From positions 1 through 64,000 of the forward strand of contig CAIJXV010000116.1 in NCBI GenBank assembly GCA_903824675.1: a stretch of 64,000 bases of DNA. The letters are read 5' to 3'. A program made the position numbers and the translations under genes. Positions 39,352 through 40,417 of this stretch are shown here, piece after piece (position 1 is the stretch's first letter; every line of letters begins with the position of its first letter). The notes under the pieces are model-generated. The model was given only the letters and a program-made list of their open reading frames with translations. It did no database searches and was not told where the DNA came from. The stretch comes from an uncultured bacterium (GTDB taxonomy: Bacteria; Verrucomicrobiota; Kiritimatiellia; CAIKKV01; CAIJXV01).

Positions 39352-40417
39352 TCATCGTTTCGGACCCATTTGCTTCGTGACGGACTTCACGTGACGCCCG
39401 AAGGCCTTGTCCTTGTTCCGTTTTTCCACGTAGGACAGGGCATGGTAGTCGGATTCCTTCTTGAGTTTCAGGTAATTGCGATAGCGCTCCTCGCTCAACT
39501 CGCCGTTTTCAACAGCGGCCAGTATCGCACAACCGGGCTCCCGGGCATGGCGGCAGTCGGCATATCGACACTTCGCCGCAAGCCGGAGAATGTCTTCAAA
39601 GCTTTGGTCCACCCCATCGGTGGCGCCGAGCAGACCTATCTCCCGCATTCCCGGTGAATCAATCAACATCGCGCCGTGCTCCAGAATAACGAGTTGCCGG
39701 CGCGACGTCGCATGGGTGCCTTCCCCTGTTTCGCTGACGGTTTTCACGCCCAAGGCATCGCGCCCCATCAGCCGATTGATGAGCGACGTCTTGCCGACAC
39801 CCGAAGACCCGAGCAGACAATAGGTCTGCCCCGGCACCAACACTTGCTGAAAATCGTCAAACCCAGCCCCGGTAAGGTTGCTGAGCGCAAGGACTCTGGA
39901 AGTGATTCCATTTTGCTGAATGGAAGCGATCATCTTTGCCAGTTCATCCGGAGATATCAAATCGGTCTTGGTCAGAAGAAGGATCGGTTCAATATGGCCG
40001 TCATGAACCGACGCCAGGTAACGCTCGAGCCTGCGCAAGTTGAAGTCGAAGTGGCAGGACTGAACGATGACGGCCTTATCGATATTGGCGGCGATCATTT
40101 GAAAATCCACCATTTTGCCTACGCACTTGCGGCGCAAGAACGCCTTTCGCGGAAACACCCCATGAATGATGGCCAGGGTTTCATCGTTATGGTACTGCAC
40201 CGTAACCCAATCTCCGACGCACGGCAGATCCGCTACAGACTGAACCTCGAATCGGAATTTCCCTGCGAGTTCAGCCGGGATTTCATGGTGCTCCGTTCTG
40301 ACGAGATACCCCCCCCCGGTCCACTGTTGTCACTCGAGCCAGAGAGTGCCCCGGCAACGGCATACTCCCAATCTGCGCCTCAAACCACTCGTCAAAACCT
40401 AGCTCTCTTAATTTCAT
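39352..40417 (-). pseudogene. rsgA: Ribosome small-subunit GTPase RsgA, frameshifted at a G9 run
   Basis: RsgA is a circularly permuted GTPase that aids 30S maturation. An ATG at 40417 opens a perfect RsgA start (KLRELGFDEWFEAQIGSMPL, then ARVTTVDRGG). This frame hits a run of nine G at 40317-40309 on the minus strand and shifts into a stop near 40283. With one G fewer it would continue as YLVRTEHHEIPAELAGKF, ADLPCVGDWVTVQ, the G4 motif TKTDL, G1 GSSGVGKTSLI, and the C-terminal zinc-binding Cys/His cluster, giving 354 residues. No ATG, GTG or TTG exists in the second frame until a GTG at 40200, inside the OB domain. So the gene is broken, phase-variable, frameshift-translated, or misread. hemW ends 8 bases upstream. 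Confidence 0.85.

Follow-up and report, generated by a model that had tools for sequence, protein, structure and literature searches.

Does the single extra base that divides an rsgA gene in this bacterial genome exist in the cells themselves and, if it does, has it any function there? The gene lies within the window, which is the whole 64,000-nucleotide stretch of DNA analyzed here, and its two parts are in different reading frames that part company at a run of nine Gs. The first-pass annotation of the sequence had proposed four possible causes for the split (sequencing error, recent decay, phase variation and programmed slippage) and had raised the idea of a tunable ribosome-assembly GTPase.

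The Gene and Its Break

The layout that had been described from the letters alone was confirmed in full on the minus strand: a recognizable RsgA N-terminus begins at 40417, loses its frame at the G9 run and soon meets a stop (table 1). The claims that the rest of the protein is intact in the next frame and that this frame has no usable start before a GTG were also correct.

Table 1. Features of the split rsgA gene, in window coordinates
Feature	Position	Strand	Basis or remark
N-terminal piece of accessory rsgA	40286..40417	-	44 codons from ATG 40417 up to the stop; RsgA-like over the first 36
TGA that ends the first rsgA frame	40283..40285	-	Read from the sequence
G9 run; frame lost at the Asp-Arg-Gly-Gly codons	40309..40317	-	Read from the sequence; comparison with relatives
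Remainder of RsgA, next frame (318 codons plus stop)	39352..40308	-	Pfam, solved-chain matches, invariant columns
GTG, earliest usable start in the second frame	40198..40200	-	282-residue product, about 72 N-terminal residues missing

The N-terminal piece reads MKLRELGFDEWFEA...VDRGG, and both its motif and its start agree with those of the relatives, although on its own it has no Pfam match. Its ATG adjoins the stop (40425) of an upstream open reading frame that, by motif, is presumably HemW-like. The second frame stays open between 40329 and 39352, with no stop in the 318 codons that follow the run, and the GTG at 40200 is the first ATG, GTG or TTG within it. This post-run part, which covers the remainder of the OB region, the permuted GTPase and the zinc region, matches Pfam RsgA_GTPase (PF03193; 6.8e-43, 146.9 bits against a cut-off of 30), TIGR00157 (162.1 bits against a cut-off of 100) and solved RsgA chains, the best being 2ykr (3.2e-36). 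It carries the motifs TKTD, GSSGVGKT, DSPG and CxxxxCxHxxxxxC, and alignment to 2ykr places them in the permuted order TKTD, GxxGxGKT, DSPG and zinc knuckle; we take the first three to be G4, G1 and G3. The permuted GTPase with its zinc motif is thus common to the split copy and the RsgA family (YjeQ/YloQ/EngC; TIGR00157/PF03193), but in the split copy, as assembled, the N-terminal 36 residues are in another frame and the OB region is not complete in a single chain. It would be complete if the run length were a consensus error.

Could the gene function in its divided state? A restart at GTG 40200 would yield a 282-residue RsgA that lacks most of the OB domain, and this GTG does have a GGAG (40215-40212) 11 bases upstream. 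However, residues 1-20 of RsgA are described, in a passage of a review, as essential for tight binding to the 30S subunit (PMC9032327), and the relatives maintain a single open frame (61 of 65 loci, see below). Moreover, the ATGA at 40286-40283, where the stop of the first frame overlaps an ATG, opens a third frame that ends after 17 codons; as this is not the frame of RsgA, translational coupling at the overlap was rejected. We regard the use of the split gene as the least credible of all the explanations considered here.

The G9 run itself is unsurprising. About 3.5 runs of at least nine G/C would be expected per 64 kb, as judged by 20 runs of an order-1 Markov simulation of the window, and one is seen. 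What cannot be put down to chance is that it falls inside, and breaks, a conserved gene.

Constraint Downstream of the Run

Over the post-run part, the branch of the window copy is 0.152, against 0.188 for the sister. With the majority state of five outgroups deciding the branch to which a change belongs, the window-only changes at codon positions 1/2/3 numbered 12/15/47 and those of the sister 34/13/36, with 45 unresolved. Of 95 columns that are invariant in 18 other sequences, the window copy keeps 93; in the other two a T is replaced by S and a T by A, the latter at the residue directly after the His of a Gly-x-His-Thr-Thr motif whose next Thr is retained. Nothing in this pattern of substitution suggests an old pseudogene. 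Since the invariant columns are kept, the branch is of normal length and the changes are mostly at third positions, the break must be either very recent or not real.

The G Run in Relatives

The corresponding site was sought in the loci of 65 relatives (L004-L069 except L033, which duplicates the contig of L004). In 61 of them a single frame stays open through the site of the run. The remaining four comprise two partial alignments (L029, L069), one short upstream frame (L060) and one frame break elsewhere in the gene (L066). The short upstream frame is from Desulfobulbus sp. Tol-SR and the in-gene break is from a record whose name gives a coverage of 1.6; neither has a long run at the site. 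The site itself could be placed in 62 loci (the 61 and L060), by ungapped extension where the alignment starts a few residues in, and none of these 62 has G9 there. The longest runs among them are a G7 (L013), which is in frame, and then a G6 (L008).

The nearest relative (75% identity) has GGGGCGGG at the site, and the wider reading GACCGGGGCGGGTAT consists of eight positions with one C. Its Gly codon is GGC, whereas the window genome has GGG. At this site, then, G-rich Arg-Gly-Gly codons come close to a run by chance, and a single silent change would be enough to make one. In the lineage of the window, the codons for Asp-Arg-Gly-Gly probably became an uninterrupted G run by such a change in a Gly codon.

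The privacy of the run bears heavily on the two explanations that give it a function. In the first, rsgA is a contingency gene: the run would gain or lose single bases often enough to be useful, and each change would turn this accessory RsgA on or off. Such switches classically have a mononucleotide run near the start of the gene, and early frame breaks in homopolymeric tracts do switch genes, as reported for A/T tracts in the part of the literature we draw on (PMC2831843). In the phase-variable inlA and swrA genes discussed there, the protein is cut short when an early run changes by one base, just as in rsgA; but the run of rsgA is private, is made of G instead of A, shows no on/off pair and lies in a gene for ribosome assembly (PMC2831843, as excerpted). 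Further arguments against a switch are that the target is neither a surface nor a restriction gene and that the other apparent breaks in this genome fall in unrelated genes (see below). A literature search for RsgA and phase variation together returned, in the extracts it gave, nothing on topic. In the second explanation, slippage of RNA polymerase or of the ribosome at the G run is frequent enough for the G9 gene to yield full-length RsgA. The constraint on the downstream frame would be in keeping with this, and transcriptional slippage on such runs has been reported in bacteria, at least in the portions of the two papers cited (PMC1088944, PMC4256274). A programmed site should, however, be conserved, and the G9 site is not; furthermore, the other apparent breaks of the genome require shifts in both directions, so one recoding rule would not serve them all. 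A tRNA scan of the 64-kb window found none. Both explanations predict a conserved tract, which was looked for and not found, and for this reason we consider phase variation improbable and recoding more improbable still.

Other Long Runs in the Same Assembly

If the break in rsgA were an accident of run length, other long runs in the assembly might be expected to break genes, and increasingly so with length. The window is part of a draft of 124 contigs, in which nine consecutive Cs are matched 153 times (both strands, overlapping matches). Sixty stretches were taken, nearly all around the runs that came first among the matches listed; a seven-state coding HMM was trained, and the frame was read on both sides of every run of at least seven in these stretches and in the window. 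The HMM placed the 70 G/C runs of at least nine as follows: 43 in frame, 9 with a frame change, 11 noncoding (including that of rsgA) and 7 at gene borders. The bare HMM count is thus 9 frame changes in 52 coding runs; for G/C runs that are seven or eight long it is 0 of 43, not counting one run of eight that lies at a strand change. The single frame change among 39 A/T runs of seven or eight is a gene junction.

These calls were then read individually, partly by eye, and the resulting count is a judgement. The frame changes at L077, L087 and L073 were dropped as ordinary gene junctions, and L098 was dropped as ambiguous, with an ATG just past the run that may mark a junction. L102 was kept, and could itself be a junction (there is a GTG in the second frame 17 bases after the start of the run). 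Two breaks were added by hand: L090, which the HMM called in frame because it placed the shift about 50 bases away, and rsgA, whose short first piece had caused both sides to be called noncoding. On this reading, 8 of 53 coding G/C runs of at least nine in the sampled stretches show an apparent gene break, and none of the 43 runs of seven or eight does (Fisher p = 0.008). Split by length, 3 of the 34 runs of nine and 5 of the 19 longer ones seem broken, a difference that is not significant (p = 0.12). Five have one extra base (rsgA, L071, L091, L123, L090) and three lack one (L102, L104, L110).

The seven apparent breaks other than rsgA sit at G/C runs of 9-11. In the S41 peptidase (L104), both halves match Peptidase_S41 in register (profile positions 2-48, then 41-165), which supports continuity. 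The Pfam matches also fit continuity in the polysaccharide export gene (L091), with an SLBB domain on either side of the run, and in the UvrD/nuclease gene (L090), where a UvrD C-terminal domain is followed by a PDDEXK nuclease. In the signal peptidase I gene (L071), Peptidase_S26 is above the cut-off on the downstream half only. The O-antigen ligase-like gene (L123) has a sub-threshold Wzy_C match on its downstream half and none on its upstream half, L102 has only sub-threshold matches (carboxypeptidase-regulatory and AhpC-like), and in the laminin-G/TSP3 surface protein (L110) weak TSP3 repeats flank the run on either side, with Laminin_G_3 upstream.

Two arguments that these breaks might have supplied were given up. 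A broken signal peptidase might have pointed to an artefact in an essential gene, but an open second copy was found, and the break at L071 is no proof of one. Missing mismatch repair was rejected as a cause of unstable runs when MutS and MutL were both found with open frames, a result that concerns gene presence only. The mutL gene carries a G9 of its own, in frame, between its two domains (L089 1560-1568; G000:C16:26659-26667), and a slip there could give a mutator. Another gene, which by eye resembles a response regulator (L087, near 1486-1495), starts MKSPPPTILIAEDD and has an in-frame C10 run close after its ATG, in the place where a phase-variable tract would sit.

Nine consecutive Cs were also scanned for in eight genomes, of which one, from the same order (G004), was followed in 40 stretches from among the matches listed. 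Five frame-change calls were made in its 34 coding runs of at least nine: two are junctions (L174, L189), one at a G11 looks like a true break (L172) and two could be either (L166, L187). The difference from 8 of 53 is not significant whether one true break is counted (p = 0.08) or three (p = 0.52), and breakage at long runs is accordingly not shown to be peculiar to the window genome.

A Second RsgA and a Possible Recent Mutation

The same contig carries a second RsgA at 148156-148896 (G000:C116; L129 1416-2333), which is open (308 codons, 305 residues from its ATG) and scores 190.7 bits with TIGR00157. Because of this copy the split gene is an accessory RsgA, and its loss would still leave the cell with an RsgA. 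The two are about 30% identical and, in a midpoint-rooted tree, fall into different clades (support 100/100, branch 2.57), so that the split copy belongs to an accessory subfamily far from the other RsgA of its own genome. Its clade has 35 rows from the Kiritimatiellota, Lentisphaerota, Nitrospirota, Thermodesulfobacteriota, Myxococcota and Chlorobiota, with single rows of other phyla, and its sister is the copy of G009 (support 100/99). Members of the subfamily (L004-L015, L034-L068) share roughly 57-75% identity with the window copy and come from many phyla, which suggests transfer between phyla; errors in metagenome binning could add to the pattern. Among the 97 genomes searched, in which the window genome is the sole member of its family, both RsgA types occur in four (the window genome, G004, G014 and G016). 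RsgA is above the TIGR00157 cut-off in 34 of the 97, the window genome included; most are drafts and some absences may be gaps, but by this count RsgA looks dispensable in the class. RsgA knock-outs are viable but slow-growing, according to the part of a review that treats them (PMC9032327).

These observations give substance to the possibility that the break is a real and very recent slipped-strand mutation: the cells would carry G9, the accessory rsgA would be off and at the start of its decay, and the loss would be tolerated thanks to the other RsgA. The apparent dispensability of RsgA in the class is in its favor; the breaks that rise with run length would fit slippage during replication equally well; and there is no sign of general assembly errors at the shorter runs. 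Against it, the 318 downstream codons contain no stop and show no relaxed constraint, so such a mutation must be very young, and with MutS and MutL both open there is no obvious hypermutator to promote it. We consider a recent mutation a serious possibility, held with less than even confidence.

The Length of the Run

The run is private, the frame beyond it is intact and constrained, and apparent breaks that depend on length occur in both directions at other long runs in unrelated genes; this combination is why we attribute the split to an accidental loss of count. Most likely, it is the product of unprogrammed slippage in run length, either as an error in the consensus or as a recent slip mutation. 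Runs of at least nine G/C are the places where both copying and read assembly lose count, and the discrepancy of one base could stem from errors in the reads, from their assembly or from a mixed metagenomic population in which the consensus took up a minority allele. We infer both the silent codon change that completed the run and the location of the error in the consensus instead of the cell. With moderate confidence, then, we favor the reading in which the consensus is one base off at the G run and most cells have an intact rsgA. We prefer it to a true recent mutation since the gene shows no other decay. The mutation follows close behind because there are no breaks at runs of seven or eight, a result that also counts against a consensus error in that the assembly is not generally error-rich. 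A good short-read consensus is usually right at G9, which is a further argument against it.

The split rsgA resembles cases that have been catalogued before. In a 2013 survey of complete genomes, frame transitions that were validated by BLASTp and unclustered were expected to be sequencing errors and not genuine indels. In its scheme, so far as the sections we rely on set it out, a homology-confirmed shift in a single genome is an error or a recent indel, whereas phase variation is recognized from homologues that cluster and have repeats close to the shift (PMC3711429). Like those singletons, rsgA has its shift in one genome, with homology on both sides and no conserved shift site, and the tests run here found no difference between it and them, as the excerpted scheme describes them (PMC3711429). 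Of the four causes proposed by the first-pass annotation, sequencing error and recent decay agree with the evidence. Phase variation and programmed slippage do not agree with it, in view of the private run, the two-way breaks in unrelated genes and a constraint that was normal until very recently. The notion of a tunable ribosome-assembly GTPase found no support, with a second open RsgA on the contig and a run that is private to the genome.

Were the G9 a real and reversible switch, which we think very improbable, a step in ribosome assembly would be tunable: subpopulations would assemble their small subunits with one or with two types of RsgA. Its fellow contingency genes in this uncultured lineage of the PVC group would be those of the S41 peptidase, the polysaccharide export protein, the O-antigen ligase-like protein and the TSP3 surface protein. 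We know of no case of a switchable step in ribosome assembly. As things stand, the split rsgA serves as a caution: of the coding G/C runs of at least nine in the stretches sampled from this draft, about one in seven appears to cut a gene, and single split genes at such runs should therefore not be taken for biology without recourse to the reads.
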